64,000 nt of DNA, taken from Symbiodinium natans. Its lineage: Eukaryota; Sar; Dinophyceae; Suessiales; Symbiodiniaceae. Numbering within the stretch: the first letter of the stretch is position 1; every line of letters begins with the position of its first letter. This document shows, piece by piece, positions 15,395 to 53,276 of the stretch. The notes beneath the pieces are model-generated. The model saw only the letters and a program-made list of their open reading frames with translations. It was not told the DNA's origin and ran no database searches. Where the stretch lies: positions 1 to 64,000 of the forward strand of contig CAJNDS010000718.1 of the NCBI GenBank assembly GCA_905221605.1, in the 5' to 3' direction. Both the position numbers and the translations under genes were made by a program.

Positions 15395-15403
15395 GGACTC
15401 GGC

Positions 15404-16700
15404 GTGTGGGGCCTGGAGCCCCAAAGCAAGGGCCCCACAGAGCCAATGTGCGACCCCAGCCCAGGGCTGGAACACATGCGAACTGCCCAGCAGTTCCTAG
15501 TTGCATGTGCTGACTATTACAGGCGAGGTGCTCACATCAATCTACATGGGAAAAGATTGAGAGAGGCCTTGGGGAAACAACTTACTGCAGATAGCAGTGG
15601 TTGTGAGCAAGGCTGGCAGAAGCCCAGCCACTTTTGTCGGCCTGGAAAGGAGTCGCCAGAAAGCGTTCCGATCACAGGGCCAAAGTTTTTCAAGCTGGAC
15701 CTTACAGATGATGAGGCACCAGCAAACGGCGAACAAATGAAGCCACTGTGGGAGGTGAACCCTGATGGGAACCCTCTGGTTACCCAAGGCCCCCCCCCAC
15801 CACAATGTAATGATGAAGCCCAGAAGGTGATACCTTCCCTCTGCAGCCCAGAAGATTTGGGTTCGGAGATGACATGGCAGGAGGTGGTCAGCCTCCTGGA
15901 AGACCAAGCGAGCCCCTTCCAGGCGAAGGAAGCCACCCTTTTAAGCTTCATCGAAGCCCAAGAGGAGGTGATGGCGGAGGACTCCCTGGCCTGGGGTTGG
16001 TGCAGGATGGTCCTGCATGCCCTAGGGCAAGGAGAGGATGTCACCGGGAAGGCCATCCAACAGGCAAAGGAGGTGATCGCCTCTGAGCTCCCAAAGAGTG
16101 AGGAGCCCCTGACACCTCAACCAGTTTCAACAACGGGGCGTTGGAGTGGGTGACCTCCTCCAAAGCCAAGGTGGTGTGTCTGCAGGAAACCCACCTCACA
16201 CCGGAACTGCATGGCAGGCGAGCCACACTGCAATCCCTCGGATGAGATCTCTATGCTGAGCCGGCCTCCCTGTCGGACAAGGGCACAAGGTTGGGGGGCA
16301 CTGCTTGTGCCTTTCCCAAAAATAGCGGAGTGCGGCAAAAAGCCACCTACCAATTCAAAGGGGCGGGCTACACAGCCGTGGGTCTGAGACAAAGACGGTG
16401 GGACTACACGATTGTGTCCCTCTACCTGAGGGACACGGAAGGCCTGAATGGTCCCACAAATGCAGAGGTGCTATCCTCTCTGGTGGCTTTCGTAAGAACC
16501 CTCCCGGAGCCCTGGATCATCTTGGGGGATTGGAACCTGGACCCGACTGAAGTTCAGGACACAGCGCTGATTCAGGTGATGCGGGGGCGGATGGTAGCCA
16601 CTGGAGAAGCTACATGCAACCATGGACTTTGGGGTGGTGAGTAGGAGCCTGGAAGCCCTGGTGGATCTGTCTGCAACCTGGGCAGTCCCGTGGAAACCAC
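15404..16700 (+). pseudogene. LINE-A2 ORF2, linker and broken EEP endonuclease
   Basis: Linker 15404-16120 matches LINE-A1. About 130 bases, including the IMSANVT motif of the endonuclease, are deleted at about 16120, and the frame then changes. The rest of the EEP domain follows, with CLQETHL and a TGA at 16243 where LINE-A1 has TGG (QSLG-W-DLYAE). It then has ILGDWNLD and MDFGVVS, so the nuclease cannot be made. Confidence 0.8.
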
Positions 16701-19274
16701 ATGCAGCCTTGCACCTCAAAGTCAAGGACGGTGCCAGCGAATGGAAGTCCTGGAAACTTCCCCAGTTCCCGAAACTCACAGCAGACCTCAAAAACCAAGA
16801 ATGGCGAGAGGTCCAACCCTCCCATTTCGCCATAATGGACAGGACCTGTGCCCAAGAGGACCAGAGCACACCTGGCAGCTGGCGACCTGGGCGGCCAGCC
16901 TGGAGCACTGCCACGAAGCACCGAGGACTGGCAGAGGCCCTTAGTCTTGCAGCGCCCTTCCACTGCCCAAAGTGGGCTGGTGGGCACGCATGGCCAGAAT
17001 CCTGGAAGAAGTGCCCGCCTCCCAGCAGCACCTACCGGACCTAGGCACCCTCCAAGCCTGTCAAGACATTGCTGAAGGTACTGCCTTCCTCACAGAACTG
17101 TACCAGCAATGTTCAGCAACAGCACCACAGTGGCGGTCTTTGAGTGTTGTTGCCAGGCACAAGGAGGCGGCCCTCCAAATGCAGAGAGCCAAGGAGCAGC
17201 AGGCCCAATACAAGGACTGGCTCCAAGCGGGATTAGCGAAAGGGATGAGACCTCTCTATAGTTCTCTCAAAAAGAGTGAGAGAGTCCTAGATCGGCCCTT
17301 CCAAAACCTCCCAGGCGAAGAGCGCCCAGGGGCCAGGAGGAAGCAGTGGGTCGCCATTTGGGGAGAGGTAGAATGTTCCCCCCCGATTGGCCAGACCCTG
17401 CTGGATGCAGCCAAAGCCTCCCCGCTGTTCAAAATAACAGCAGAGGTGCTCGAGGCCATCCTCAAGAATGTCACCGACAAGGCAGGAGGTCTTGATGGGC
17501 TCACCTATGCTGCCCTCAAAAACCTCCCTGGACCGGCCTATGAGCAGCTCACCCAAGTCCTGAACTTGGCTGAAACCACAGGAGTGGCGCCACAGCACTG
17601 GCAGGCGCACCATGTGGCACTCCTGCCCAAAAATGCTGACATAGAAAGGCCCATAACCCTCACATCCATCACCTATCGGCTTTGGTGCTTCTGCAGAGCA
17701 CAGGTCGTCAAGAAATGGATGCGAGAAACTGCAGAGAGGTTCCCATGGGATAAAGCCTCCCCGGGTAACACTTGTCTAGAAACAGGCATGCAGAGACTCC
17801 TGAGAGGAGAGGTTAGCCGCGCTGCTAACAAACATGCCTGTGCGGTCCTGTTGGACCTGCAGACTTTCTATTTCTATGACAGTGTTAATTGGACCAAATT
17901 GGAGGAGCGGATAGTGGCGACCGGCTTCCCGCCAGCTATAGCCCTCCTGGTCATGCAAGTCTACCGGGGAACGAGATATCTCGTGGCAGAGGATCTCCTT
18001 TCGGAGGGGATCCTCCCTGCGAGGGGCATCCTAGCCGGGTGCCCGTTCGCAACAATGATGGCCAGGGTGGTTTACCTCCAGCCAATAATGCAAGAAGCCG
18101 CTCAGCTCCGCAGTATCACCGCCCTAGACACCTGGGTGGATGACATTGGAGCGGATTTCGAAGCACGATATCCTGAGCAGGCAGCGTTTGCGGTCTATGA
18201 AGGTTACAAAACCCTTCGCCGGCTTCTGGAAGGTAGCGACCTCCGTTTGTCCCTGAAGAAAACAGGCTTCCTGTGCACCACTGCAGAAGCCAGAAGGGAG
18301 CTACAGAAGCTGCGCAAAGATGGGGACCCGGCTATCTGTGATAGCGTGAAGGATTTAGGCCTGGACTGTGCCCTGGGTCGGGTCCGGAGGGTCAAGGTGC
18401 AAAGAGCCCGCAAGCACAAAGCGGGCCAACGGCAGAAGAAGTTGAAACAACTGAGAGTCCCGGTGTGCCGGCCAAGGTTCGCCTCTTCATATATATATAT
18501 ATATATATATACGGGGTTGCCTCCGTCCTTACTTGGGGCCACCAAGCCCAGGGAATGCCGCCCACACGGAGACAGAAGCTCCGGACTGCCTTGGCTGAGC
18601 AGTGTGGCAGACAGAAAATGGGCAACCTAGAGGTGGCTCTGTCCTCTGTAAGCGACAGGTACCAGGATCCGGGTCGCACAATGATGGTCCAGCAAGTTGA
18701 AGCCTGGTTCCAGCTCAAGAAGAGGTGGGCCGGCAAGGAAGACCTGCTGGAAAGAACCTGGGGCCTTACAGTCCAAAAGCTGGAAGAAGCCAGCAGCCGG
18801 TGGCAAATGGTTAAGCGCCCTCTTGCAGCTACAGTTGCATACCTGCTTGACCTGGGTTGGCAGCCTAGAGACAGTGATGAGTGGCTGGACACCCAGGGCA
18901 CCAGGCACACCATGCACACCCCACAGCAGGAGTGTCGTGTCCTTGACCTCCTCCAGCAAACTTATCAGGAAGAAGTAGACCGCCGCATCGCCACCGGCCT
19001 CGCTGCTCCTGAGCTAAAGGGGGGAATCGACTGGACAGTGGGGAGAAAACTGTTGGGGGGTTTTAAGAAAGAAGGGCGAACCACGACAGCAGCTGCCCTG
19101 AGGTGTGTTTGGCAGGGTGCCCTGGTGTGCAGCCAGAACTCTGCTGTCAAAGTGTGCCCCCGGTGCCACCAGGAAGCGGACTGGGAGCATGTGCTCTTGG
19201 ATTGTGCTTGCTGGGAAGCCCAGAACTGGGAACCCGAGATCGCTGTGGACCAGGGGCCTCCCGCCCAAACCTGA
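16700..19274 (+). pseudogene. LINE-A2 ORF2, reverse transcriptase and CCHC finger
   Basis: Reverse transcriptase matching LINE-A1: GGLDGLTYAAL, LLDLQTFYFYDSVNW (motif A with a duplicated Phe-Tyr), GILAGCPFATMM, and TWVDDIGADF (catalytic Asp pair at 18139-18144). The frame 16972-18630 carries it to about 18460. There a missing G (CCCGG against CCCGGG in LINE-A1) shifts the frame. The continuation is open from 18465 to 19274, passing through an (AT)n tract read as an Ile-Tyr repeat, the connection region and CPRCHQEADWEHVLLDC. Small three- or six-base differences from LINE-A1 (CRAQ/CSRAQ, RVVYL/RVYL) lie at short direct repeats. Confidence 0.9.
18488..18512 (+). repeat. (AT)n microsatellite inside the reverse transcriptase frame
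   Basis: About 12 AT units replace six bases (GGGGAG) of LINE-A1. The net change keeps the downstream frame open and would insert an Ile-Tyr repeat. Confidence 0.9.
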
Positions 19275-20105
19275 ATGGCAGGTACCACCTCCTCAGGCAG
19301 ACAATCCCATCTTTTTGGGCATATGGGCTGACAAAGAGCCCCTCAGTGACCCAGAGCTTGTTTATGGCACAGATGCTAGTGGTGGCCCCTTCACGGCGGA
19401 CCTGCGACTCCGGAAGGTAGCCTACGCAGTGGTGGCCTGCAAGAAACAGGGCCAAGACTATGTCCAGGTCGGAGCTATCGTCCGCCAAGTCCCTGGACCA
19501 CAGACGGTTTTTCGGGGTGAAATGTATGCAGTTTTGCAGCTGGCCCGTTATACCGAAGGCCCTATTGACACGACACTTGACTGCCTTGGTGTCCCGAAAC
19601 GAGTCCGCAGCCCAAAACCGGGGAGACAGCAGGTCAATGACCTGGCGGATAAGCTGTGTGGGGAAAAAGCGGCCAAGCTGGCCCCTGATACCCGGGCAGC
19701 CAGTCAGTACCAGGACCATTGCAGCAAAAAGGCCCAAGAGTTCCTGGCGAGCAGGGCTGAAAAGATCCTCACCGCCGTTGGGGAAAATCAGACCCAGTGT
19801 ACAAGGTCTTCCTGCAGGAAAAGCAGGCCCGCAAGCACCCTGAGGCCACTGCTAGGCCCTGCAAAAAGCGTGTTGGATCCAACATAGGTCGTGGCCACCA
19901 CCACTACCCAGCAGGAATGGTTCCAGAAGCTGGTCCGGACCAAATCCGTGCATGCCTGGAAGCGGAAGGTCAAAACCTCCGGTGTGCCCAGTGCCAGCTA
20001 AAAACTTTTGCACACCAAAAACCGCAAGACCTTAGAGGCACTGGCGGCACCAATGTGCACAGCAAGGAAGGGTTGCGATCGAAGGGCATGTCACGCATGT
20101 TTTGA
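19275..20105 (+). pseudogene. LINE-A2 ORF2, RNase H domain (internally deleted)
   Basis: DPELVYGTDASGG, FRGEMYAVLQLA and TTLDCLG are present. The stretch that holds the WVPSH loop is deleted between SPKPG and RQQVNDLADK, so the domain is inactive. The first part reads in the frame 19105-19887; the linker (VPPPQADNPIFLGIWADKEP) shows what LINE-A1 lost beside its intron-like insert. The tail reads in a third frame to 20105. Confidence 0.8.
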
Positions 20106-20206
20106 AACTTCTAGCTAGGCAGCTTTGGGTGTGTAAGGGTTGTGGTGGCCAGCTGTCCCTTAAACCCAAACGGTTTCGCAAAACTTGCTGCTTGTAGTTT
20201 CAAAAA

Positions 20207-20604
20207 GTAAGTTCTAGATGGCTGCAGGCCTGCTTTGGCCAGTCGTTTTACAACTTACAAACCTCAGATAGCTTCGTTGTTTGGCCTGCTTGGCCTTCTG
20301 CACGCACGCTAACAGGCGTTGTCGCGTTGGGTCTCAACTGAATTTGGCAAAGCTGGCAGCATGGCGCCACATTGTAAAGAGCGAGGCAAGACTTGCGGAG
20401 TGCGTCTCGCGCCTGCCAGAGCAGCTTGATGCTGGCACGCACCTCGGTCTCGGCTGTTTGCCATGGGGCAGGCGCGTGCCCAAGCTTGTTGCGGGAAAAT
20501 GCCGTGCTGTAATTTGGCTTGCGACATGATCGGTCCTAGTGCGTTCTGCAGGTGCCCAGTAAGAGTAAGACTTATGTCCGTGCGCCAGGCTGCGTGCTGT
20601 AAGA
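20207..20604. other. Unassigned spacer after LINE-A2
   Basis: Unique sequence with no gene or repeat that I recognise. It separates the LINE-A2 A-run from the next K fragment. Confidence 0.5.
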
Positions 20605-25620: not shown

Positions 25621-26572
25621 GCTGTACGCCGCGATTCGGGAAGACCCGCCAGTGGTGTACAGCGTGTGCTGCAAATTCTTGCTGCTGAAGAATATTTGTC
25701 GTGTCTTTTGTCAAGACCCAAGCCTCGAAACTGGAGCTGGACTTGAGGCTGCGATTGTGCTGGGAATGCTTACGTGTGCGCAGGCTCCAACTACTTTCCA
25801 CGCTTACGCGCAACGCTTCCGCGACATCATTTGTCTCATGAACTGGCGCTGGGCGCATGACTGCATTTTGGCTCAATTTTAGTTAATGACTTGCAGCCTG
25901 CAGCCTCGCAAAGCGACGATGCAGCGCCGTGCTTTGAGCGGGTACAAACCCGAGTGCCGTTGCGAAGCTAGAAGTTGTAAGTTGTGCTCTCTGAAGCGCG
26001 CGCAAAGAGACCTGAGGCTGCAACTGCGCGACACAAGCCGAGCTATGGTGCAAGCGCGGGGGAGGCAACGCCGACAGGGTGTGCCGTGTGGCCTGACGAA
26101 CAACCAAAGAAGGCAGGTGCTCTGCACATTTGTTCTTAGTGGAAACAACGGCATCGTGGCGTTGCAGCATGGGCGAATTCTTCGTGCTCGCAACAAACCA
26201 TCTTCCTCGCCTTTGCCCACTCTTGGTTTCGTGCGGCAGTTATACAGAGATGCGTCGGAGGCTGTCCTTCACAGATGTCTTGAGCCCCAGACTTCTGCAG
26301 AAAAACAACTCCATGTACAGTCACGTCTCTTCCTGGCAGAGGCCAAGCTGTTTCGCTGGGTTCGACGGCAGAACTTTGAGTGCCACTCCGCGCCCACCAC
26401 AGCAGCAGCGTTGGCCATGTATCGTGCGTCTCTGGGCGACATCGTGGGGTGTCGCTCAGGCAAGGCTCGTGGAGGAAGAAAGTGGCTTCAGCGATGGGGC
26501 AGACGCTGGGATGTTCGCAGAGGTGCTATGCCATTTCGTATCGATGTGGAAGCCGTGCAGCTCCCGCAAAAG

Positions 26573-26744
26573 GTTGGTCAGTACCTTTGAGAGGGTCGCG
26601 CAGCAGCGGATCGATTTCTGGGCCCCGAAAGAGACCCCAAAACACCTGCCAGAAGTGGTACGGACCCATAAAGTAGGTCCGAAATTTGCGCCCAAAGTAG
26701 GCCCCTTAACTCGTGTGTCTGACGCTGGTTGATGTCCTGTCCAG
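26573..26744 (+). other. Intron in transposase copy 1 (172 bp)
   Basis: GTTGGTCAG...CTGTCCAG. Joining CAA-AAG to GTG-GCG keeps the frame into the DDE core and removes the TGA at 26588. The same intron is at 37280-37451 in copy 2. Confidence 0.75.
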
Positions 26745-27200
26745 GTGGCGGTTTTTTTCCGCACTGTGCAATGCATCCGTGCTGCAGCGAAGCCTCGACG
26801 CTTGCTTTGGCTCAACCTCGATGAAACAGCTGTGGCCTTGACGCCGCGACCTCCGCACGGCTTGCTCGTCCGGCGGCGACATTGGGGGTCCAACGTGGAT
26901 GGTCCACATATAGCGACGACCAAGAACGATGTACGTGCTTGTGTAACGTATGTCTCAGTTATCACGTCCTGCTGCCAGGAGCTCCAGGAACAGCTGCCGC
27001 ATTTTGTGATAGGGAACAAATCGCTCTTCACATTGGCGTTCATGAGTGCAGTCGCTGGGCATCGCCCGGAGAATGTTCACGTCATTCGGGCTGCGTCTTC
27101 CTGGAACACTGGCCAACTACTCATGGCCATGTTGCGTCTGATTTCGCTGGCTGTGGATTCTTGGCGGTGGCAATACCAGCCGGTGTTGCTCCTAGACGTT

Positions 27201-27212
27201 GCACCTTGTCAT
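27201..27212 (+). repeat. Target-site duplication of LINE-B, left copy
   Basis: GCACCTTGTCAT is repeated exactly at 35840-35851. Removing 27213-35851 restores the transposase reading DVAPCHIGQDV seen in the uninterrupted copy at about 37900. Confidence 0.95.
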
Positions 27213-27384
27213 AAGCCCCCTGGCTCATAGCAAGATGCAGTAGCGGGGGTGTCGGTGTGGTTTCCTTTTGGTTTGCGTTTGTGCGTTGGTCTGCGGTCTC
27301 TTTCCTTGTCCCTCCCTCCTCTCCCTCTGACTTCAGGGTCGTAGAGGCACTCGAGCTGACTCGATTGCTTGCGCAGTGAGAGCC

Positions 27385-29586
27385 ATGATTGCAGGGCGTC
27401 TTGCTTTCCTTACGCTGCTGACATTCTTATGTGGGAGCTTGGCCAGAAAACGGCCATTGGAGGATTCCTTGGATCCCATGCTCGTCATTACTGGCGAGGC
27501 CCCTCTCTGGACACATCAAGATGGACAGGGCCTGACCTCTGCTGATCTACAAGCCCAAGCAACCGGCAGACAGTTGACTGGTTCCGTTGAGATTGGCCCA
27601 GGCCCAACATTGGACTCAATGCAGCTCACCGCATGCATCTCACATGCACTCCGCACTGACATCGCAGCTGAAGTTGCGATGGATACCAAGTCATCGGAAG
27701 ATAACGCTGCTGCCAATCTGGCAACCCTAACAGCGGATGAATCTGCACTGAAGGGGGAAGCGACATATACCCTGGCATGTCCGGAAGGACATGGTCGGTC
27801 CTTCGACGACTCACGAGCCCTGGCATCAATTATGCCGCCGACAGGTGCTGAGGAGATCGGCTCAAATCTGTCGCATCTCACCACATGCCCCTTGCAAGTA
27901 CATCCCTCTGGCGCCTCAGCTGCAGGCGTGATCGGAGTCACGCAGTCAGTTGAGACTGCTGCTTCAATTTCGAAGGCGCCTATAATGGAGGTGTCTGCAA
28001 CAACCGGGGCAGTGCAGGATACTCTGGTGTCCACGGTTCTGCCGTTCTCTGCAGTTGTTCAGCCACCAGTCGCTTGGAGCTGGGAAGCCGACATCATGAT
28101 CGGACAGATGGCTGACCGTGCGCTCGCGGCCCAGGTTGCTCGACAGCTCACCGCGGACATCGCTGTTATTCTTCGAGAGTACAGCTCCATGATATACACA
28201 GCTACAGGACGCTGGTTGAGAACCGACTCAGCAAGACTGGCCAGGCTTTTTCATGCTCACTTTGAGGAGGGCTTCCGTCAATCTTCGGTCATTTTTGCCT
28301 ACGAAGCTGCTCTGCAACAAGCGGGGTGCTGCTTTGATGCCTGCGCGCGACTGCCACATCTCCTTCTTCGACAAGGTCTGCAAAGGACCAGCGTGGAAGC
28401 AGTGCCACATATCGACTCGGCGCCATCCACCCCGTCCAGCAGGCCATTAGTGTGCAGTCATTCGGGTGCATTTCACATGTCCTACCAAATGACAGGCCCG
28501 CAAGGTCTGTCACCTCTAGCCCTCGCACATAGGCAGATGCAACGCGCGCAGCTCAAGCTGCCATCACGCTGTGCTGCACTCCGCCTTAAGACCCTGAGCC
28601 CAGTAGGTACATCACTAGTAATTCCCGCCCCAGGTCCAGCAGTGCGACAAGCCACATCGCCGCCGACTTCAAGTCTTCAGCCGTTAAGCAGCAGTCTTGC
28701 AGGTATAGGGTTTAAAAATCTTCCGGGTTTTGAGCTGCCTGCGCTTTTTGCACGTTCAGCACCTTGCATTGCTCTTCGACGGCTGTTCCCACAAGCGCAG
28801 CCCAGAAGTGCACAGCAGGCACCCTGTCTCTGCCTCTTTAGCGTAATAAAGATAAGTCGCCATGATTGCCGACCCCCCAGCACAAACTCGAAGCGCTGCA
28901 AGTTGTGTGTTTTGTTTTCGGTCAGCCGACCGGACGGGCTCTACCAGCTGGGGCCCCTGCCAAAGCAAAGCCTCTCACTGTCGCTTATGAGCTGCACTTA
29001 TCGCTCTTCATCGGCCAAGTCACCTGGCCTCCAGTTTTTCCCTTCCGCATATACGCAAACCAAGAATTCGCTGAATCCTTGCATATCTGCCTACCAGGCC
29101 AAGCCTTACAGGCAGTCTGGCTTCTGCTTGCACGTTCTCTTCATCGACATTCCTCCTTTGCTCAGCCTGCCCGGTCCCAAGTCCGGGGCGCGACCAAGAT
29201 ACTGCAAGTCTCGCACACTGTACAGCAGTCCTCCACTGAAGGTCGGGGTAGACGTCGTGTGGTCGCGTGGGGTGAGGGTGGAAGGCTCTGCAGGCCAGCA
29301 TCCTTCCGAAGTTCACAATCGCTCAGTGCTCTTCCGGCTTCGCCCAGGAACGAAGCTTATCGGCCGTATCCCACATCTGCGGTGGTTTCCTTGGAGGCCA
29401 ACCTCTGTATTCGGCTCTCTGTTTGATAGATTGCATCCTCTCACAGTGCACTGTTCCACCAACACCGTTGCTGCCTCCTTCTACAGCTGGCGCACAATCC
29501 GATACTCCCTGGCAAGGAGATGGCGATTCAATATCCTCCATCTCGTCGCCCCTCCCGTCGTCTCTCTCCCAGACGCATCAAACTAA
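27385..29586 (+). CDS. LINE-B ORF1 protein (733 aa)
   Basis: ATG 27385 chosen. The N-terminus MIAGRLAFLTLLTFLCGSLA looks like a signal peptide or a single membrane segment, followed by RKRP. Residues ~25-440 are Ala/Thr/Ser-rich with no known RNA-binding motif that I can see; a helical Ala/Gln-rich segment is around MADRALAAQVARQL. The last ~250 residues (from about 28830) have the composition of an off-frame reading, while another frame, 28866-29426, stays open there and looks somewhat more protein-like, so a frameshift near 28850 is possible. Function unknown; by position it is the ORF1 of the LINE. Confidence 0.6.
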   Translation: MIAGRLAFLTLLTFLCGSLARKRPLEDSLDPMLVITGEAPLWTHQDGQGLTSADLQAQATGRQLTGSVEIGPGPTLDSMQLTACISHALRTDIAAEVAMDTKSSEDNAAANLATLTADESALKGEATYTLACPEGHGRSFDDSRALASIMPPTGAEEIGSNLSHLTTCPLQVHPSGASAAGVIGVTQSVETAASISKAPIMEVSATTGAVQDTLVSTVLPFSAVVQPPVAWSWEADIMIGQMADRALAAQVARQLTADIAVILREYSSMIYTATGRWLRTDSARLARLFHAHFEEGFRQSSVIFAYEAALQQAGCCFDACARLPHLLLRQGLQRTSVEAVPHIDSAPSTPSSRPLVCSHSGAFHMSYQMTGPQGLSPLALAHRQMQRAQLKLPSRCAALRLKTLSPVGTSLVIPAPGPAVRQATSPPTSSLQPLSSSLAGIGFKNLPGFELPALFARSAPCIALRRLFPQAQPRSAQQAPCLCLFSVIKISRHDCRPPSTNSKRCKLCVLFSVSRPDGLYQLGPLPKQSLSLSLMSCTYRSSSAKSPGLQFFPSAYTQTKNSLNPCISAYQAKPYRQSGFCLHVLFIDIPPLLSLPGPKSGARPRYCKSRTLYSSPPLKVGVDVVWSRGVRVEGSAGQHPSEVHNRSVLFRLRPGTKLIGRIPHLRWFPWRPTSVFGSLFDRLHPLTVHCSTNTVAASFYSWRTIRYSLARRWRFNILHLVAPPVVSLPDASN

Positions 29587-32500
29587 GTATGTGCTCTCAG
29601 CGCATGATACCCTCCTTCCTCTCGATTGTCAGGTCTATCAAACTGCGCTTGCCTCTACGACGAGTTGTTCTCGCGGCCTCCTCATTTGATTGGCGCGACT
29701 TCACCCACTCCCGCGCTTGCCCTTCCCCACGCTCTCACCCTAAACCTGCCCACTCCAGAACACCCAGTTGCCTCACACCTCATCGCGCTTCCTCCTTAGC
29801 TGCTCCCCCCTTAACTCCCAAACCCGCGCTTCGACTGCTCTCTCTCCTTGCGTGCTTTCAACTGTGTGCCACTGCCCCCGTCACTTTCCCAACATTACCC
29901 GAGCCCAACGGAGCAGCGCATGTCAAAAAATCCTTGTTGCGGGCACAGAAGCGAGCAAACCGTTTTGGCAGAACCACCTATCACGGTCGGGTCTTGACTG
30001 CTAAGCAACTAGGATCTCATTCCCCTAAGCCTGCCCCCAAGTCCGCCAGCTGCACCTCACCTCCCCCCTATCCTAAGCCACATGTTGATGTACTCACCTG
30101 GAACAGTAGTGGGCTCTCTCAGTCCAAGTTGGCTGAATTACTTGCGTGGCTGAACGCAGAAGACAGCCCGTCTCGATACCGCATCGTGTGCATCACTGAA
30201 ACCCACTGGTCAGACACCAGTGAGTTTCACATGCAAGGCTGGAATGCTGTGCACTCCGGCTTCAGCACCAAGGCTGCAGGCATCCTGCTACTAGTTCATG
30301 AGGATCTATGCGCACCGCACCAAATACGGTATAAAGAAATTCTGCCAGGTCGCCTCGTACATCTTCGCATATATCAAGGTTCTGCGCCAGCCATAGATAT
30401 CCTCGGTACATACCAGTACGCCTGGAATCTTGCGAGAGGCCCTGGATCCCAACCGCAACGCCGCAAGGCCCTGCTTGATGAGCGGCTTGATGTCTGGCAG
30501 AAAATACGCAGCTGGGTTCAATCTATCCCGGCTAGGAACGCCTTGTTGCTCATAGGTGACTTCAACTGCGGCCTCAAGACGCATTCCACACATGTCGGTC
30601 GAGGTATCTCAATTCCCCGCTCGGGCTATCCTGACGACCAATACCTCTTCCAGGACATCCTTACCGACTATGCGCTGACAGCTCTCAACACCTGGGGGCG
30701 CCATGGTCGCAAGGCCGGCACCTTCCAGCACCATTCTGGCTCCGTGACACAGATTGACTTTGCCATTGTTAGGGCCAGACTCACCACGCCGCAAGCCCTC
30801 CAGGCCAAATCACTCCAGGCAGTCCCCATACTGCCCAAAACTGGCATGTATCACTGCCCCGTGCATCTTACATTTCCTTTGCCTGCAAACCCCACTGCTC
30901 ACCAGGCTGCCTCCCAGAGTCTAACGCTGGCCAGTGTCAAAGCTCAGCTTCGCGCCTCTCCGGATACGCAACAGAGCTTCATAGCCAATCTCCCTACTCA
31001 GGTCCAGGACGAGGAGGACCTCATCAAGTCCATGTACGACTCCTGGGCACTCGCCTGTAGAGAGAATCCACCCCCTGCTACCCGCACCAAGGCGGAACAA
31101 GTCAAGGAAGAGCTTCAGCGTACAACTTTGGTCACAGTCAGGTCTCTCTGGGCTCTGAGAGATCAAGTGCATCAGAATCGTACCCAGCTCCTCTCTACTG
31201 CCTTACTTCACTGTGTAGCCTCGGCACTCACACCGGTTCAAGCTTACCTACCGGCACGCGTCTCATCCTGGCTGAGAACCAGCACCTCGCGTTATCTGGG
31301 CGCAATCCTACGTTGGTGGAAGCTCAGCACCCAACACGACTGCCAAGCGAGGGCTCTTCGCAAACATTGCCGCGCCAGGAAGAAAAAACACCTTGAAGCT
31401 CTCATTGCTGACGCACAGGCTGGCAAGCACTGCCTGACGGCCTTACATAACATCCTGAAGAGATTTGCGCCTAAAACCCGGCCCAAACGCATCCAACTTC
31501 GGACCTCCAGCGGCGACATTCAATCGCCGTCAGCTGAGCTAGCTCAGATCCTCTCGCATTTCCGCGTTGTCTACGACTCGCCGACAACCCAACCATCACC
31601 TAGAGCTGTTTTGTCTCCGATCACCTTTTCCATCACAGAGATAACTAATGCTTTTCTGCATCTCCCACGGAAGGCTCTCCCATCACATTATCCTCCAGCT
31701 CCGCTCTGGCAAGCAGCCGCCCCCTTAGCTGCTAGTGTCTTTCACGAATGTCTGCATCAAGCGTTTAAGTCTGAGCGCCTTTATCTACCAGACACATGGC
31801 ATAGAATCCAGGTGGCACTCATCCCTAAACCCTCTAAGCCCCTAAACTGCCCGGGTTCGCTTAGACCCATTTCCCTACTGCCGCCGATGGCAAAAGTCCT
31901 GGCGAAACTTCTCGCCTCACGCATTCGTCCTTTTGCGCAGGAAGCTGCCTCCAAACTTCCGCAATATGCCTACCTCCCACAGAGGCAAACGCTCGACGCT
32001 CTCGATCGCGCTTTCTCCCATTGCCACTCGGTGCGACTTAAGCGACAGACAGGCTACATTACCACGAGGGATCGCTACGAAGGCAAAATAACAAGGCAGT
32101 GTGAAGGGGGCATAACCTTCTCACTTGATCTTCAGAGAGCTTTCGATAGCATCCCCTGGAGTTCACTAGAAACCAGTCTGCAAGACGCTGGTGTTCCTCG
32201 CTCGCTTGTACACCTCATAATGTACTTGCACGAACGAGCCACGTATGTCTTTCGCACCTCGCACTCGCAAGGCTCTATTTTCGCGGGACAGGGCATCAGG
32301 CAAGGCTGCGGTCTGGCTCCACTAGTATGGACCATTTACTCCCTGAAAATCCTTAAGAGCATGGCATCCATCGCCCCAAACTCGCAGCGGACGCTCTTTG
32401 CAGACGACTTTCTCTTCCAATGGAGCATAAGCTCGCCACAGGACTTCCTGAAAATCCCACACCAAATTGCTGGAATCATCCAGACCCTGAATAGGCAAGG

Positions 32501-35500
32501 GATGTTTTTAAGTCCGGGTAAATCGGTCATCCTGTACAGCTTGTGGGGAGGACAAGTGCCCAAGCTGCTCAAACCCCTAGTTAGGCTGCACCCCACCCTA
32601 GGTCGTTGCTTTCGTGTGCCCCTTCATGACTATAAACAGGCTGTCTCACTCCCGGTTGTGAGCACCCATGTTTATCTTGGCATGGTTCTCTCCTATAAAA
32701 ATTTCGAGATGCACAGCCTACGGCACAGAACTAGACAGTCCTGGATTGCTTTTAACAGAGTCAAGCACATACTCTGCAACAGAACGCTCAGCCTGCACTT
32801 GCGGCTACAGCTATATAAAGCACTGTGCCTCTCCATTCTCCGATATGGGCTTCCCAGCTGTGGGCTGACTGCTCTAGGGCGTGACAAATTCACCACCACT
32901 GTGCTGCGTCAAACACGCATGGTGGTTCGCAACCACTCCTACTTTACTGGACTTTCCAATGCAGACTTTCTCCAGCGATTCAAGTTGGAAGAGCCTCTCA
33001 CAAGCTTCCATGGTATTCTCCTTAACAGGTTAAGAGGCATTGAGCACAAACCTGTAGCCCAGACCCACCCTCCTGAGGTCTGTGCCTGGTGGCAGCACCT
33101 TCGCTCCACTGTGGAGGCTCCGTCGGAGACTCCGGTGGATGAGAGGCAGTTAAGGCACAGGCGGGACACCCATCAATCTGAACCGTGTACTGTCTGCGGG
33201 GCTGTTTTTGTCAACGAGGCCGCGCTGCGCTTTCACATCACCAAGATGCATGTCCAACCGGACAAAAACACCCAAAAGGCCTTGAAGGCAGCGCTTCGTG
33301 TTCGCAAGGATGAACACATGCTGCATGCGCACGGCGGATTGCCGACCTGCAGGCACTGCAGACACAAGTTTTCGTCCTGGCCTCAGTTCATGAGCCACTT
33401 TAATCGGCAATGCTGCCCAGTTCTGCACCTTCAGCAAGCCTCTCAGTTTCCCCCGCTTCCCCCAGACCCGGCGCCGCTGATTCAACAAGCTGAACTGCTT
33501 TCTTTGGCCGCGACTTACACCTGGCAAGAGCTCGCTGCAGAAGTCCAAAAGTTTGGCAGGCTCCTGCACTGTCCGCTATGCAATCTTTGGATGGCGCAAA
33601 CTGGCCAACTGGTGAAGCACATGCAAGCCCAGCACAATGACTTTTCCACCGCCATTTCTCTCATTCAGCAGTTCCTTCTTGAGTGTAAAGGTATTACCAA
33701 GCCTTGCCGCTTCTGCTCTACTAGTCATCACAAGGCCGCGGTGGGTTGTCCGGTTCTCTTTAGAGTTGCCCTTCTCTTGAATCACCACAACAGACTGCGA
33801 CACACCCTTCAGGCTTCACAGCATGGAGGACGTCGGCCGGGACGAGCTAATCCGAGGACAGCAGGAGCTTGCGTTGTTCAACTCGATGATGCCAGCGCCG
33901 GGAGCCGCAATTCCCCCTTCGCAGGGAACCGGTCTGCGGAGACAACGAGATCGCAACGACGAAAGCCCACATGTCATCCGCAAGGCCTTCCGACCCAAAG
34001 GGAAGGGCCCGTCATATCCACAGGACAGACGAACCTCCGCCAGTTTCTTGGAGGACTCAAGCAGCAGCGATGCTCAGTTGGAAGTAGTGAAGATGATGGC
34101 CAGGCTCAGCGTACGCCAGGCCGACCAGCTGAGCATCCTGAAGTTAGACACGACCTATGTCTTGTTCCTCAAGACGCAAGGAGCAATGTCGATTACGAAG
34201 GATCTATGGGCAATGGGGAATCGGTGGCACGAACAGAAAGAACAAACTCCACAGGACATCACGATGCCGCTTCGCAACACCTTATTCTCCTGCCTTCTGC
34301 GCTCGCTGGATCTACGACTCCAGGCACTGCAAGAGAAGGAGGATGCCCGGGTGCAAGCCAGGAGCTTGCACTTGCTTCAGGACCGGGAGGATCACGTGTT
34401 GGCATTCAACTATATGCAATGGGACTCGCAGACCAGGCAGTACCTTGTGAAGAAGGACAGGGAGCCTCTTGCCCTGACCGAACTGAGGAGGGACATTGCC
34501 ACCATGCAAGCCAATCTGGCCCATCCTCGGGTCGTCAACCGTTTTCACGCCATGAGGAAGCTTACGGAAGACCTGAGTGGGGACGTCCTGCCGATGCACT
34601 TGGAGATCGGACTTCGCAGCCAAGTTGCCCATCAGGTCTTCGACTGCCTGGACAAATGGTGTCACAGCGGCGCCTTTCACTTGATCTCAGCCACCCTTCG
34701 CCACGAACGCCTAGGCAGAGACGGTCTGGTCTCTTCGTTGGTGAAAGCTGTGGATCGTCTGTGAAGCCTGCCGCCAGTCGGAAGCTGAAACTCCTTAATA
34801 CAGCCAATTTCTGTTACATAAACAGTTGCCTACATGCCCTTTTGCACTTGCAATCTCTCTGCCCACCTGCAGCCGATTTTGTAAGGCCAGACTTTCAGAA
34901 AATCTTGAAATGGCTGGCTACTCAGAAAGAAGTCCATGTTTGGCGCACCTTGGGTTTTCAGCAATTGCTTCATGGCTGGCCCAGGCCACTTGAGCAACAT
35001 GACGTTGCAGAACTACTTCTGCATATGAAGGACGGTGACCTGCTGGCTGCCGGCTGCTTCACTGGCAGCTGGCAAGCCAGACGCATGGAACATACTCTTC
35101 AAGTGCTTGACGGAGGACACGTCAGTCCCCTCTTCATCGACGCTCCACTTGGAGCAGTCTCGACCTCAGGAGTGGCTGCCTCTGCAGCCACTGCATCACC
35201 CTCTGCTGCAGATGCCCGCCGTTGCACCCTGCAGACGCTTGTAGATGCCTGGGCTTCTCAGGCCCATCCGCATGCGCTGTGTGAGCTGCCAGAAGTCTTG
35301 ATGCTACAGATCAATCGGTTCTGGGACCCTGCTTTCCCGCAGCATAAGAATTCACAACCCGTAAGCGCTGGCTGCACTGTCTCCTTGCCCCACTTCCTGC
35401 AACCAGACAGTCTTCAGACCTCCCTGGCCAGATATCAGGTTCGAGCGATCTTGTTGCATCAAGGAGCATCCAATGCCTCCGGACACTATCGTGCTCTGAC

Positions 35501-35639
35501 GCTGTCACCTGAAGGTGTAGCGTGGTTGCACGACGATGGTGCTTCAGCTGTGAACGTTACAATCAAACAGAGAGCCGAATTAGACAAGCAATCATATGTT
35601 TTCTTCTGCACGCTGATAGAGGCCTCTCTCTCTCCGTAG
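29520..35639 (+). CDS. LINE-B ORF2 polyprotein: EEP-RT-zinc fingers-USP (2039 codons open)
   Basis: A single open frame. Residues 1-~185: basic, Pro/Ser-rich. ~190-455: EEP endonuclease (VLTWNSSG, CITETHW, LIGDFNC, TQIDFAIV, CPVHLTF). ~700-1090: reverse transcriptase (VALIPKPSK, SLRPISLLPP, SLDLQRAFDSIPW, GIRQGCGLAP, LFADDFLFQW). ~1222-1375: three C2H2-type fingers. ~1435-1750: a stretch that looks off-frame, overlapped by a better-looking ORF. ~1755-2030: ubiquitin-specific protease domain. Known LINE ORF2 proteins nick DNA and copy their RNA; a deubiquitinase at the end is unusual. The start ATG overlaps ORF1, so reinitiation or frameshifting would be needed unless the mRNAs are separate (SL trans-splicing could do this). 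Confidence 0.85.
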   Translation: MAIQYPPSRRPSRRLSPRRIKLSMCSQRMIPSFLSIVRSIKLRLPLRRVVLAASSFDWRDFTHSRACPSPRSHPKPAHSRTPSCLTPHRASSLAAPPLTPKPALRLLSLLACFQLCATAPVTFPTLPEPNGAAHVKKSLLRAQKRANRFGRTTYHGRVLTAKQLGSHSPKPAPKSASCTSPPPYPKPHVDVLTWNSSGLSQSKLAELLAWLNAEDSPSRYRIVCITETHWSDTSEFHMQGWNAVHSGFSTKAAGILLLVHEDLCAPHQIRYKEILPGRLVHLRIYQGSAPAIDILGTYQYAWNLARGPGSQPQRRKALLDERLDVWQKIRSWVQSIPARNALLLIGDFNCGLKTHSTHVGRGISIPRSGYPDDQYLFQDILTDYALTALNTWGRHGRKAGTFQHHSGSVTQIDFAIVRARLTTPQALQAKSLQAVPILPKTGMYHCPVHLTFPLPANPTAHQAASQSLTLASVKAQLRASPDTQQSFIANLPTQVQDEEDLIKSMYDSWALACRENPPPATRTKAEQVKEELQRTTLVTVRSLWALRDQVHQNRTQLLSTALLHCVASALTPVQAYLPARVSSWLRTSTSRYLGAILRWWKLSTQHDCQARALRKHCRARKKKHLEALIADAQAGKHCLTALHNILKRFAPKTRPKRIQLRTSSGDIQSPSAELAQILSHFRVVYDSPTTQPSPRAVLSPITFSITEITNAFLHLPRKALPSHYPPAPLWQAAAPLAASVFHECLHQAFKSERLYLPDTWHRIQVALIPKPSKPLNCPGSLRPISLLPPMAKVLAKLLASRIRPFAQEAASKLPQYAYLPQRQTLDALDRAFSHCHSVRLKRQTGYITTRDRYEGKITRQCEGGITFSLDLQRAFDSIPWSSLETSLQDAGVPRSLVHLIMYLHERATYVFRTSHSQGSIFAGQGIRQGCGLAPLVWTIYSLKILKSMASIAPNSQRTLFADDFLFQWSISSPQDFLKIPHQIAGIIQTLNRQGMFLSPGKSVILYSLWGGQVPKLLKPLVRLHPTLGRCFRVPLHDYKQAVSLPVVSTHVYLGMVLSYKNFEMHSLRHRTRQSWIAFNRVKHILCNRTLSLHLRLQLYKALCLSILRYGLPSCGLTALGRDKFTTTVLRQTRMVVRNHSYFTGLSNADFLQRFKLEEPLTSFHGILLNRLRGIEHKPVAQTHPPEVCAWWQHLRSTVEAPSETPVDERQLRHRRDTHQSEPCTVCGAVFVNEAALRFHITKMHVQPDKNTQKALKAALRVRKDEHMLHAHGGLPTCRHCRHKFSSWPQFMSHFNRQCCPVLHLQQASQFPPLPPDPAPLIQQAELLSLAATYTWQELAAEVQKFGRLLHCPLCNLWMAQTGQLVKHMQAQHNDFSTAISLIQQFLLECKGITKPCRFCSTSHHKAAVGCPVLFRVALLLNHHNRLRHTLQASQHGGRRPGRANPRTAGACVVQLDDASAGSRNSPFAGNRSAETTRSQRRKPTCHPQGLPTQREGPVISTGQTNLRQFLGGLKQQRCSVGSSEDDGQAQRTPGRPAEHPEVRHDLCLVPQDARSNVDYEGSMGNGESVARTERTNSTGHHDAASQHLILLPSALAGSTTPGTAREGGCPGASQELALASGPGGSRVGIQLYAMGLADQAVPCEEGQGASCPDRTEEGHCHHASQSGPSSGRQPFSRHEEAYGRPEWGRPADALGDRTSQPSCPSGLRLPGQMVSQRRLSLDLSHPSPRTPRQRRSGLFVGESCGSSVKPAASRKLKLLNTANFCYINSCLHALLHLQSLCPPAADFVRPDFQKILKWLATQKEVHVWRTLGFQQLLHGWPRPLEQHDVAELLLHMKDGDLLAAGCFTGSWQARRMEHTLQVLDGGHVSPLFIDAPLGAVSTSGVAASAATASPSAADARRCTLQTLVDAWASQAHPHALCELPEVLMLQINRFWDPAFPQHKNSQPVSAGCTVSLPHFLQPDSLQTSLARYQVRAILLHQGASNASGHYRALTLSPEGVAWLHDDGASAVNVTIKQRAELDKQSYVFFCTLIEASLSP
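30085..30880 (+). other. LINE-B EEP endonuclease domain
   Basis: Catalytic pattern complete except the last motif: Asn in TWNSSG, Glu in TETHW, Asp/Asn in GDFNC, Asp in QIDFAIV; the usual SDHxP is YHCPVH. Likely cuts the target for primed reverse transcription. Confidence 0.85.
31620..32790 (+). other. LINE-B reverse transcriptase domain
   Basis: Motif A Asp at 32127-32129 (LDLQRAFD), motif B GIRQGCGLAP, motif C FADD at 32397-32408, then the LSPGKSVIL block. All catalytic Asp codons are intact. Confidence 0.93.
33186..33635 (+). other. Three C2H2-type zinc fingers in LINE-B ORF2
   Basis: CTVCGAVFVNEAALRFH...H (33186-33251), CRHCRHKFSSWPQFMSHF...C (33348-33413, last ligand Cys) and CPLCNLWMAQTGQLVKHM...H (33570-33635). 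A fourth weak CRFC...C cluster follows near 33700. They may bind nucleic acid during target choice. Confidence 0.85.
33823..34764 (+). CDS. Overlapping ORF inside LINE-B ORF2 (313 aa, +1 frame)
   Basis: ATG 33823 to TGA 34764, one frame off from ORF2, which also stays open. The product has the composition of a folded helical protein (MARLSVRQADQLSILKLDTT, LLRSLDLRLQALQEKEDARV, LRRDIATMQANLAHP), whereas the ORF2-frame reading of the same bases is Ser/Gly/Pro/Arg-rich and looks like a shadow. Preceding in-frame stop at 33778-33780. It sits exactly between the zinc fingers and the USP domain. It may be a separate protein, a segment reached by frameshift, or the remains of two compensating indels. 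I recognise no family. Confidence 0.55.
   Translation: MEDVGRDELIRGQQELALFNSMMPAPGAAIPPSQGTGLRRQRDRNDESPHVIRKAFRPKGKGPSYPQDRRTSASFLEDSSSSDAQLEVVKMMARLSVRQADQLSILKLDTTYVLFLKTQGAMSITKDLWAMGNRWHEQKEQTPQDITMPLRNTLFSCLLRSLDLRLQALQEKEDARVQARSLHLLQDREDHVLAFNYMQWDSQTRQYLVKKDREPLALTELRRDIATMQANLAHPRVVNRFHAMRKLTEDLSGDVLPMHLEIGLRSQVAHQVFDCLDKWCHSGAFHLISATLRHERLGRDGLVSSLVKAVDRL
34779..35636 (+). other. USP (peptidase C19) domain at the C-terminus of LINE-B ORF2
   Basis: Cys box LLNTANFCYINSCLHALL (nucleophile Cys codon 34812-34814, residue 1765), matching the Asn/Cys-box form N..N.CY.NS. A mid-domain segment has LEQHDVAELLLHM, like QxDxxEf. An LPEVLMLQINRF motif resembles the LPxxLxxxLkRF beta strand. 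His box is ASNASGHYRALT (His codon 35484-35486, residue 1989), then WLHDDGASAV, the usual W...nD. Size (~280 residues) fits a minimal USP. All catalytic positions are kept. Expected activity: removal of ubiquitin from proteins; the role in transposition is unknown. Confidence 0.85.
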
Positions 35640-35839
35640 AGTGTCACTTCAAGTGTTGGACTCATCAGTTGATAGAACTGTACAGATTTTGCTAGTATTC
35701 TGCTGTCTTCTGCACTGCTCATGGGGCGCTCGCGCCGGGTGCAGTACAGGGGTAGCCTCCGCTTCATCACGAAGCCGCATGCACAGTCATGCACCTGACA
35801 CGCTATGCAAAGCACTCCTTTGCCGCGTCGGAAGAAGAA
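35640..35839 (+). other. LINE-B 3' UTR and GAA-repeat tail
   Basis: 200 bases after the stop, ending GAAGAAGAA directly before the right target-site duplication. A simple-repeat tail rather than poly(A) is known for several LINE clades. Confidence 0.75.
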
Positions 35840-35851
35840 GCACCTTGTCAT
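35840..35851 (+). repeat. Target-site duplication of LINE-B, right copy
   Basis: GCACCTTGTCAT, identical to 27201-27212. Confidence 0.95.
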
Positions 35852-36327
35852 ATTGGACAAGATGTTATGGAGTGCGCTCGAGAGCTGGACCTTTGTCTGG
35901 CTTACGTGCCAGCGCGGTGTACGTGGCTATTGCAGCCACTGGATGTAGCGGCATTCTATGCCTTTAAAGAATGGTTGAAGCAAGAGTTCCAGAGTATGCG
36001 TCAGGCAGGCAGCGGACATGTTTCAAAACTGTAATGGATGCAATTGTTGCTTCGAGGCCACCAAGAATTTTGGTCGCAGAGAACGTGGAAGCATGCCTTC
36101 CGACTCACAGGATGCACGGGCGAAGCTCTGCATCACTTGTCTAAACGCTTGCAGCATTTCAAGCTGGACCCTGCAACAGTTCCAAGCGCAATGCTCTCGG
36201 AAGCCGAGTCAAAGCTGATCTGGCCACGGAACCGTGGCATGTCTTACGCGCGTGACTTGCTGTTCGGAGCGTGAAAGCTAGATGTGCGGAGGTCTAAATG
36301 GACTCAAAAGGAAAAGGTTCTTTCTGC
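35852..36327 (+). pseudogene. DDE transposase unit, copy 1, 3' part
   Basis: Continues the transposase after the LINE: IGQDVMECARELDLCLAYV, then CTWLLQPLDVAAFYAFKEWLK, whose QPLD holds the third catalytic Asp of DDE_1-type transposases. A TAA at 36031-36033 (CAA in copy 2) stops the frame at HVSKL; the same frame then continues to LLFGA at 36273. The unit ends with GGTTCTTTCTGC at 36327 and copy 2 starts at the next base. Confidence 0.85.
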
Positions 36328-38382
36328 GCTGTACGCCGCGATTCGGGAAGACCCGCCAGTGGTGTACAGCGTGTGCTGCAAATTCTTGCTGCTGAAGAAT
36401 ATTTGTCGTGTCTTTTGTCAAGACCCAAGCCTCGAAACTGGAGCTGGACTTGAGACTGCGATTGTGCTGGGAATGCTTACGTGTGCGCAGGCTCCAACTA
36501 CTTTCCACGCTTACGCGCAACGCTTCCGCAACATCATTTGTCTCATGAACTGGCGCTGGGCGCATGACTGCATTTTGGCTCAATTTTAGTTAATGACTTG
36601 CAGCCTGCAGCCTCGCAAAGCGACGATGCAGCGCCGTGCTTTGAGCGGGTACAAACCCGAGTGCCGTTGCGAAGCTAGAAGTTGTAAGTTGTGCTCTCTG
36701 AAGCGCGCGCAAAGAGACCTGAGGCTGCAACTGCGCGACACAAGCCGAGCTATGGTGCAAGCGCGGGGGAGGCAACGCCGACAGGGTGTGCCGTGTGGCC
36801 TGACGAACAACCAAAGAAGGCAGGTGCTCTGCGCATTTGTTCTTAGTGGAAACAACGGCATCGTGGCGTTGCAGCATGGGCGAATTCTTCGTGCTCGCAA
36901 CAAACCATCTTCCTCGCCTTTGCCCACTCTTGGTTTCGTGCGGCAGTTATACAGAGATGCGTCGGAGGCTGTCCTTCACAGATGTCTTGAGCCCCAGACT
37001 TCTGCAGAAAAACAACTCCATGTACAGTCACGTCTCTTCCTGGCAGAGGCCAAGCTGTTTCGCTGGGTTCGACGGCAGAACTTTGAGTGCCACTCCGCGC
37101 CCACCACAGCAGCAGCGTTGGCCATGTATCGTGCGTCTCTGGGCGACATCGTGGGGTGTCGCTCAGGCAAGGCTCGTGGAGGAAGAAAGTGGCTTCAGCG
37201 ATGGGGCAGACGCTGGGATGTTCGCAGAGGTGCTATGCCATTTCGTATCGATGTGGAAGCCGTGCAGTTCCCGCAAAAGGTTGGTCAGTACCTTTGAGAG
37301 GGTCGCGCAGCAGCGGATCGATTTCTGGGCCCCGAAAGAGACCCCAAAACACCTGCCAGAAGTGGTACGGACCCATAAAGTAGGTCCGAAATTTGCGCCC
37401 AAAGTAGGCCCCTTAACTCGTGTGTCTGACGCTGGTTGATGTCCTGTCCAGGTGGCGGTTTTTTTCCGCACTGTGCAGTGCATCCGTGCTGCAGCGAAGC
37501 CTCGACGCTTGCTTTGGCTCAACCTCGATGAAACAGCTGTGGCCTTGACGCCGCGACCTCCGCACGGCTTGCTCGTCCGGCGGCGACATTGGGGGTCCAA
37601 CGTGGATGGTCCACATATAGCGACGACCAAGAACGATGTACGTGCTTGTGTAACGTATGTCTCAGTTATCACGTCCTGCTGCCAGGAGCTCCAGGAACAG
37701 CTGCCGCATTTTGTGATAGGGAACAAATCGCTCTTCACATTGGCGTTCATGAGTGCAGTCGCTGGGCATCGCCCGGAGAATGTTCACGTCATTCGGGCTG
37801 CGTCTTCCTGGAACACTGGCCAACTACTCATGGCCATGTTGCGTCTGATTTCGCTGGCTGTGGATTCTTGGCGGTGGCAATACCAGCCGGTGTTGCTCCT
37901 AGACGTTGCACCTTGTCATATTGGACAAGATGTTATGGAGTGCGCTCGAGAGCTGGACCTTTGTCTGGCTTACGTGCCAGCGCGGTGTACGTGGCTATTG
38001 CAGCCACTGGATGTAGCTTTAAAGAATGGTTGAAGCAAGAGTTCCAGAATATGTGTCAGGCAGGCAGCGGACATGTTTCAAAACTGCAATGGATGCAATT
38101 GTTGCTTCGAGGCCACCAAGAATTTTGGTCGCAGAGAACGTGGAAGCATGCCTTCCGACTCACAGGATGCACGGGCGAAGCTCTGCATCACTTGTCTAAA
38201 CGCTTGCAGCATTTCAAGCTGGACCCTGCAACAGTTCCAAGCGCAATGCTCTCGGAAGCCGAGTCAAAGCTGATCTGGCCACGGAACCGTGGCATGTCTT
38301 ACGCGCGTGACTTGCTGTTCGGAGCGTGAAAGCTAGATGTGCGGAGGTCTAAATGGACTCAAAAGGAAAAGGTTCTTTCTGC
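36328..38382 (+). pseudogene. DDE transposase unit, copy 2 (uninterrupted)
   Basis: 2055 bases, head-to-tail with copy 1 and differing by only a handful of substitutions. Exon 1 frame 36593-37279, intron 37280-37451, exon 2 from 37452 with LNLDETAV and LLLDVAPCHIGQDV. A 13-base deletion (GGCATTCTATGCC of copy 1) right after QPLDVA shifts the frame, giving a stop soon after. The C-terminal part reads on in the frame 37589-38329 (FKEWLKQEFQ...LLFGA). Thus the copy lacks a continuous product, but by a different lesion from copy 1. The unit ends at GGTTCTTTCTGC (38382). Confidence 0.85.
37280..37451 (+). other. Intron in transposase copy 2 (172 bp)
   Basis: Same position and sequence as 26573-26744; contains the hairpin CGGACC-N9-GGTCCG. 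Confidence 0.75.
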
Positions 38383-38799
38383 ACTGTACCCTTGGAGCAG
38401 GGTAGCTTCTCTGATTGGTGGACGTCGGAGCCTAAGACACTGTTCGGTTGGTACGTGCAGCACGAACCCCCTGTCCCACGAATTTTAATAGTCTTCAACG
38501 TCCAAGCCCGGCGCTGCGCGCACGCTGTCTTGCAAAAGGTGTGCTTCAGCTGGGCATGGGGACCTCGCCCTGGGATGTTTGGCTCAAGGACAAAACATGC
38601 AAGCTCGGTTTCTCTTCGCTTCTGTGCCTCCATGCTTTCGCGCTCTATAGCTGAGTTGTTGCTTCCTGAAACGCGCTGTGGACTATGAGCTTGGACTTCA
38701 GAGCTACTGCCGATGATGCTCCTGGCTGACGGCTCTCGCGTTGGACATCTTTGTCTTTTCTTTCATGGCTTCGCGTTGATTGGACGTGCGCAGCCGAGT
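38383..38799. other. Unassigned sequence right of the transposase pair
   Basis: An open frame continues to 38688 without a known motif. No other signal. Confidence 0.4.
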
Positions 38800-52390: not shown

Positions 52391-53276
52391 ATGGCAGTCG
52401 GCAAGAACAAACGCCTCACCAAAGGAGGCAAGAAAGGTGGCAAGAAAAAAGCCGGTGACCCGTTCCTGAGGAAGGAGTGGTATGACATCAAGGTGTCTTG
52501 ACAGGATATATTGGTCCTCTCTTTTTGGCAAATCTTTTGGTTTTAGTTATGGAGATGTTCTTCCAAGTTTCGCCCAGGCCCCAAGCATGTTCAGCGTGCG
52601 GCAATGTGGCAAGACATTGGTGTCCAGGACACAGGGGACAAAGATCGCCACTGAAGAGCTGAAGGGCCGGGTGCTTGAGGTGAACTTGGCGGATCTGAAC
52701 AACGACGAGGACCAGGCTTCCAAGAAGGTGCGCCTCTGCATCGAGGAGGTTCAGGGCCGAAGTTGCCTCACGGACTTTCACGGCATGACCTTGACAAGGG
52801 ACAAGATCTGCTCCCTGATCAAGAAATGGCAGACGCTGATAGAAGCACAGGTGGATGTCAAGACGACTGACAACTACGTCGTCCGCATGTTCTGCATAGC
52901 CTTCACAAAGCGCCGACCAGAACAGGTGAAGTCTAACTGCTACGCGCAGTCTGCGCAGATTCGCAAGATTCGCCGCAAGATGGTCGAGATTATGACGCAG
53001 GAGGCAGGCAAGGTCCAGTTGCGGGAGCTAGTCAAGAAACTCATTCCGGAATCCATCGGCAAGGAGATTGAGAAGCAGACACAGGGCATCTTCCCGTTGA
53101 AGGATTGCCTGATCCGGAAGGTGAAGATCATGAAGAAGCCAAAGTTCGACATCACGAAGTTAATGGAGCTTCACGGGGACGGTGGCGATGATGTCGGTGT
53201 GGAGATGGTGCGTCCAGAGGCGGAGGATGCAATGAACACTTTGACGGCCGACGTGGCAGCTGCTGATGACGATTGA
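52391..53276 (+). CDS. RPS3A: 40S ribosomal protein S3a (eS1), two exons
   Basis: Exon 1 52391-52492 (34 codons, [20 protein letters not shown]... to WYDIK), intron 52493-52577, exon 2 52578-53276 (232 codons plus TGA), 266 residues, the normal length for eS1. The N-terminal [70 protein letters not shown] and [15 protein letters not shown] are family hallmarks. The C-terminus is short and acidic (AADDD). It is part of the small ribosomal subunit near the mRNA exit and eIF3. The start is the only ATG that gives the conserved N-terminus. Upstream AG dinucleotides (for example GTTAG six bases before ATG) could accept the spliced leader. A GYF gene follows ~150 bases downstream on the same strand. 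Confidence 0.98.
52493..52577 (+). other. RPS3A: RPS3A intron (85 bp)
   Basis: ATCAAG|GTGTCTTG ... TCGCCCAG|GCCCCAAG. Both borders carry AGG, the short direct repeat common at dinoflagellate intron ends. The removed part contains an in-frame TGA. Confidence 0.95.

Follow-up and report, generated by a model that had tools for sequence, protein, structure and literature searches.

We analysed a 64,000-nucleotide stretch of the Symbiodinium natans genome (contig CAJNDS010000718.1, assembly GCA_905221605.1, positions 1 to 64,000), called the window here. It carries a long interspersed nuclear element (LINE) whose second open reading frame (ORF2) joins an endonuclease (EN) and a reverse transcriptase (RT) to a predicted ubiquitin-specific protease (USP) domain at the C-terminus. 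A nested gene, MID, precedes the USP in the +1 frame. An earlier note, made from the letters of the window alone, had proposed the USP but missed both MID and the clade-wide reach of the USP. All counts given below come from this one genome (759-Mb assembly), which bears the mark of a dinoflagellate host: its spliced-leader core occurs in 205 exact copies, 104 of them forward and 101 reverse, and the reversed control in none. The features of the element, all on the forward strand, are the following.

27214..35839: whole LINE element, 8,626 bp; the 3' end is a short repeat of GAA and lacks poly-A
27201..27213: GCACCTTGTCATA, the 13-bp target-site duplication on the 5' side, read by eye
35840..35852: 3' copy of the target-site duplication, GCACCTTGTCATA, read by eye
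37908..37920: empty target site, a single GCACCTTGTCATA inside the copy of the duplicated flanking unit that has no insert
27331..29586: open frame at the ORF1 position (putative), 736 aa from 27376, isoelectric point (pI) 9.5; overlaps the ORF2 frame
29520..35639: ORF2 (EN, RT, fingers, linker, USP), 2039 aa from the first ATG; the open frame runs from 29430 (2069 aa)
30093..30782: apurinic-type endonuclease, PF03372, 25.2 bits (cut-off 24.5)
31821..32537: reverse transcriptase RVT_1, with the catalytic FADD at 32397-32408
33186-33251, 33348-33416 and 33570-33635: three C2H2-type zinc fingers, by motif; Pfam score under cut-off
33823..34764: nested gene MID, shifted by +1 against the ORF2 frame; encodes a basic protein of 313 aa that is conserved across the clade and belongs to no known family
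33823..34764: the same stretch read in the ORF2 frame, a low-complexity linker held free of stop codons
34785..35636: USP/C19 domain, by profile, motifs and predicted fold; contains the Cys, QHD and His boxes and the Asp

A Pfam scan of the whole 2039-aa ORF2 returned RVT_1 (1.5e-21), UCH (7e-13, residues 1758-2029) and Exo_endo_phos (1.6e-5). For comparison between families, 13 representatives (window included) were drawn from 25 loci, L009-L033. These loci were chosen for long open frames and are hence biased to an open ORF2 frame; among the representatives, L009 and L013 are fairly close (69% in the USP). Searching the 25 loci with the window domains (phmmer) gave matches to RT in 25, EN in 23, MID in 25 and USP in 21, and the four loci lacking a phmmer match to the USP (L026, L027, L028, L032) are PF00443 matches in the genome profile search. 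The RT active site reads FADD or YADD in all 13 representatives. When their RT profile was compared with solved RTs, the top row (4.3e-35) bore the general name RNA-directed DNA polymerase, the best row named LINE-1 ORF2 had 1.2e-34, and R2 reached 2.5e-13 at best. By this comparison the element looks L1-like.

The earlier note had read a Cys box, a LPEVLMLQINRF strand, a His box and a W..DD motif in one frame with EN and RT, and all four are found where it had placed them: NTANFCYINS at 34797-34826, LPEVLMLQINRF at 35286-35321, SGHYRAL at 35478-35498 and WLHDDG at 35523-35540. A further USP box, QHDVAEL, lies at 34995-35015. The profile search that the note had proposed matched PF00443 (UCH) on the isolated domain at 2.7e-15 (57.1 bits, cut-off 23.9), and PF00443 is matched by every representative. 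The catalytic Cys, His and Asp/Asn, in this order, and the QxD box are invariant in 13 of 13. A single-sequence search of the PDB with the window USP found at best USP28, weakly (E 0.064), and the profile of the 13 representatives matched USP46 at 6.1e-19. The fold prediction, likewise proposed in the note, gives a USP; the nearest structures include USP46, USP12, USP1, the SAGA deubiquitinase module and USP16, within about 2 Z units. The note had also called for a search for further LINEs with RT plus UCH. Such LINEs were found in this genome, and across them the sequence of the domain evolves under purifying selection. Of the three outcomes that the note had named as speaking against its reading, none was observed. 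Judged by sequence and model, the C-terminus of the replicase looks like a competent USP, and the claim of a LINE with a C-terminal USP is borne out by profile, fold, catalytic residues, multiple copies, clade-wide presence and purifying selection.

The position of the domain in frame with the replicase was likewise read correctly. What needs correction is the part of ORF2 just before it: residues ~1420-1748 (33781-34764) are an out-of-frame-looking linker, and it is the +1 frame that encodes the conserved protein. Translated in the ORF2 frame, the stretch from the fingers to the USP is noise-like, and the +1-frame MID is conserved between families, with 21-40% identity to the window MID. We calculated the expected number of stops by fixing the MID protein and its codon usage and then counting stops in the ORF2 frame. 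Through MID, 85.5 ORF2-frame stops are expected overall (3.7-9.8 each), and none occurs in any of the 13 representatives. The third frame holds 8-18 stops per representative, close to expectation. The RT region, taken as a control in the same relative frame, has 237 stops versus 226.5 expected; hence, there is no general stop depletion. To these we added ten loci, L034-L043, drawn from 65 MID matches for which no PF00443 neighbour was listed and free of the long-frame bias; within this set, L034 and L037 belong with L022 and L013. Nine of the ten have no ORF2-frame stop and L036, whose MID is itself interrupted by a stop, has one (70.9 expected overall). One more locus, L044, has none versus 7.7 expected.

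The ratio of nonsynonymous to synonymous substitution rates (dN/dS) in the overlap is 0.06-0.26 for MID in six pairs and 0.53 in L009/L010, window/L022 being saturated and L029/L030 too close. For the ORF2 frame it is 0.43-1.48 over eight pairs: 1.09-1.48 in L012/L013, L009/L013, L027/L028 and L023/L024, and 0.43-0.74 in L016/L017, L014/L016, L009/L010 and window/L022. The two sets of values are mutually dependent, as they are taken from the same bases. On these substitution patterns, MID is clearly the better conserved protein of the two frames, and the ORF2 frame through MID is mainly held open rather than conserved. With the stop counts above, the ~300 codons ahead of the USP are read as coding in both frames.

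MID is basic in all 13 representatives (pI 8.6-9.8). In most MIDs an acidic stretch opened by Met comes first, which the model of the window MID shows as a helix, and a part rich in Lys, Arg and Gly follows; the start was set at the first Met by choice, and L025 has no acidic Met-led start. The structure model of the window MID is confident from about residue 80, and its comparison with solved structures (Foldseek) gave no clear match, the weak top rows including Cas6 RNA nucleases. MID may be a nucleic-acid-binding partner protein and may fill the RNA-binding role of ORF1. The frame at the ORF1 position itself matches no Pfam family and is matched by near-identical copies only.

The insertion is of the LINE type, with a 13-bp target-site duplication that the automatic duplication finder missed and no long terminal repeats; the element does not include the large direct repeats. 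A ~2-kb unit is present twice, and the LINE occupies one copy; in this unit, 25621-27213 corresponds to 36328-37920 (99.7%) and the right flank 35840-36334 aligns with 37908-38389 (96.6%). The insertion and its own empty site are both present in the window. Two full copies lie elsewhere, L020 on contig C1335 (99.95% over 8,629 bp) and L019 on C990 (99.79% over 8,628 bp), each with both ends within 2 bp, and the element has moved as a unit, USP included. Target-site duplications were sought around both copies, and none was definable. The L020 copy (C1335:704720-714710) is embedded in a TTTAGGG telomere-type repeat array.

Across the assembly, PF00443 has at least 149 matches (149 of 310 candidates scored), part of which are presumably host genes. 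Two related presumed host ORFs (L004 and L006; 711 and 721 aa) carry their USP domain behind a long N-terminal part. Among the matches listed for the window USP (150 of 169), at least six places, counting that of the window, have a USP with 100% identity to the window's. The window MID has 128 matches, of which at least 63 have PF00443 just downstream, rising to at least 100 once window-USP matches are included. We read five of the remaining 28 (L041, L038, L039, L036 and L034), and L041 has a USP with the catalytic residues present. Taking the 100 scored RT rows (of 1,145 candidates), the listed downstream matches are MID and USP in 61, MID only in 11, USP only in 9 and neither in 19. Reading two of these 19 showed MID and USP in each, intact in L044 and damaged in L045. 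As the sequences stand, the MID and USP pair is a mark of a LINE clade, with losses. Not every LINE in this genome carries the pair, because the other LINE of the window, two related broken copies at 3575-9707 and 15181-20207 (91-94% alike), has a weak RT match and no match to MID or USP. Elsewhere in the window, 52482-53276 is an ORF for ribosomal protein S3Ae in one open frame (6.8e-69).

Some families have a single open frame of 3,200-4,767 aa. Contigs C2296, C521 and C345 have LINE open frames of 4,767 aa with a USP match at the end. Seven N-terminal parts were scanned from the giant LINE ORFs of further loci, and no Pfam family scored above cut-off; one of these parts, L014:6242-9931 (reverse strand), gives at residues 527-596 a weak match to the Tpt1/KptA RNA 2'-phosphotransferase (E 2.8e-4, under the family cut-off).

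Because the ORF2 frame is open through the ~300-codon MID stretch, the USP would be part of the ORF2 product, most simply translated as the C-terminal end of the replicase. The simplest cause of the open frame would be that ribosomes that made RT must reach the USP. The protease could then strip ubiquitin from the ORF2 protein and from proteins packed on the element RNA (cis-preference), which would shield the ribonucleoprotein particle (RNP) from the proteasome, and MID would serve as the nucleic-acid-binding partner of the element. Protection of the RNP is favoured because a deubiquitinase fused to RT would first meet RT and the proteins of the same RNP. We therefore consider it rather probable that this is an L1-like LINE whose replicase-fused USP protects the ORF2 protein or RNP from ubiquitin-dependent destruction, with MID as partner. 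More tentatively, the clade may have turned its replicase into a deubiquitinase by overprinting: the second frame of MID was kept open, joining a downstream USP to RT, and frame choice would then give either a small RNA-binding protein or the full RT-USP, so that one RNA builds the RNP and defends it against ubiquitin-based host control.

Several observations weigh against RNP protection by a fused USP. The USP is broken by a frameshift in L037 and L038, and in L036 it is gone after ~31 residues. L034 ends directly behind MID, and a USP match appears on this strand 9 kb later; an insertion has probably cut its USP off from MID. L039 (C34:199317-201335) keeps an open ORF2 frame, and its USP is degenerate, with neither Cys nor His box; its group counts at least four MID places, the USP being read in L039 alone. 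The USP tree lacks two pairs that the RT and MID trees support, and exchange of the domain between families is possible. RNP protection is also just the simplest among several uses of a deubiquitinase, and a separate mRNA could be the source of the USP. As a separate observation, L039 is a candidate dead deubiquitinase.

A separate trans-spliced or re-initiated mRNA for MID and USP, leaving the USP unfused to RT in the main product, would fit the position of the MID stop, 11-80 nt ahead of the Cys box in 8 of 13 representatives, and the long-frame ATG, which overlaps this stop in L018 and L026 and, there inside the USP, also in L009 and L013. The 30 nt that precede the MID ATG contain CAGG in 7 of 12 versus 2.6 expected, a weak excess; the pyrimidine-AG without the last G occurs in 10 of 12 versus 7.3 expected. 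We consider a separate mRNA unlikely, as it leaves unexplained the stop-free ORF2 frame in all 13 representatives and in 9 of the 10 loci chosen regardless of it, and in some elements, that of the window among them, a long-frame ATG is missing around the USP start. A chance fusion, or a LINE running into a host USP gene, could draw on UCH-matching ORFs that have no LINE domains and are presumed host genes (L001-L008). The earlier note had regarded absence of the domain from other copies as the sign of such an event; the USP is present in multiple LINE copies and was transposed together with them, and with its clade-wide presence and selection this explanation is refuted for practical purposes. 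In the tree, 18 LINE USPs also stand apart from four presumed host USPs (support 91/93), which is not decisive.

The role of the USP could differ as well. Viral papain-like proteases can double as deubiquitinases, and the USP might in the same way be a processing protease that cuts a giant ORF1-ORF2 polyprotein. Single frames of the size found in some families would profit from cleavage, and the protease is placed at the chain end. However, LxGG motifs number 12 in the 13 ORFs versus 13.6 expected by composition, with none in 5 of the 13, and the Pfam matches of the window ORF2 and the seven N-terminal parts include no ubiquitin-like domain, which makes processing the least credible of the proposed roles. 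It is improbable, though somewhat less so, that the USP instead has its substrates in chromatin or among repair proteins where the element inserts (ubiquitin on histones, PCNA or Fanconi-type substrates). The nearest folds do include such chromatin and repair deubiquitinases, and the USP is carried by the polypeptide responsible for nicking and copying at the target. On the other hand, USP folds are mutually alike and their ranking says little on substrate, and dinoflagellates are reported to have a histone deficit (PMC6723414).

Compared with known systems, the window LINE resembles human L1 (ORF2p) in having an apurinic-type endonuclease and then RT in one ORF, and in its target-site duplication. 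It differs in the several C2H2 fingers, the nested +1-frame gene, the C-terminal USP and the 3' GAA repeat without poly-A. Dualen/RandI and other mobile elements carry OTU-type domains, which are deubiquitinase-like but belong to another fold family and are no L1-like C-terminal USP. Cellular USPs (USP46, USP12, USP2) share fold, boxes and catalytic residues, whereas identity is ~20% and the domain here is part of a replicase. NeSL and Utopia LINEs (PMC4640811) also have a cysteine protease of the ubiquitin-like deconjugating kind; theirs is an N-terminal Ulp1-like protease with a restriction-like endonuclease, in contrast to the C-terminal USP (C19) and apurinic-type endonuclease found here. 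SymbioLINE-Dnmt elements of Symbiodinium (PMC5890265) likewise keep a captured enzyme domain, DNMT, under purifying selection, but in a separate ORF1 and not within the replicase ORF2. Of 117 DNA-methylase rows in the assembly, none precedes a listed RT or MID row on its strand by 15 kb or less. The word "ubiquitin" is absent from the text of that paper (PMC5890265) and of a 2024 review of dinoflagellate genomes (PMC11453091), and no described LINE with a USP was found in the open-access literature, which omits most subscription papers. A LINE with a captured domain is thus of a known kind; the USP, its C-terminal place and the nested gene appear new.

Ubiquitin control of mobile elements is usually viewed from the host side, and a deubiquitinase carried by a LINE would be a direct handle on this conflict. 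Its retention through the deep divergence of the clade predicts that ubiquitin restricts LINE replicases in dinoflagellates. MID adds a long, clade-wide dual-coding region with a clean statistical signature, and the nested gene raises the testable question of how the frame is chosen in organisms known for trans-splicing of a spliced leader.
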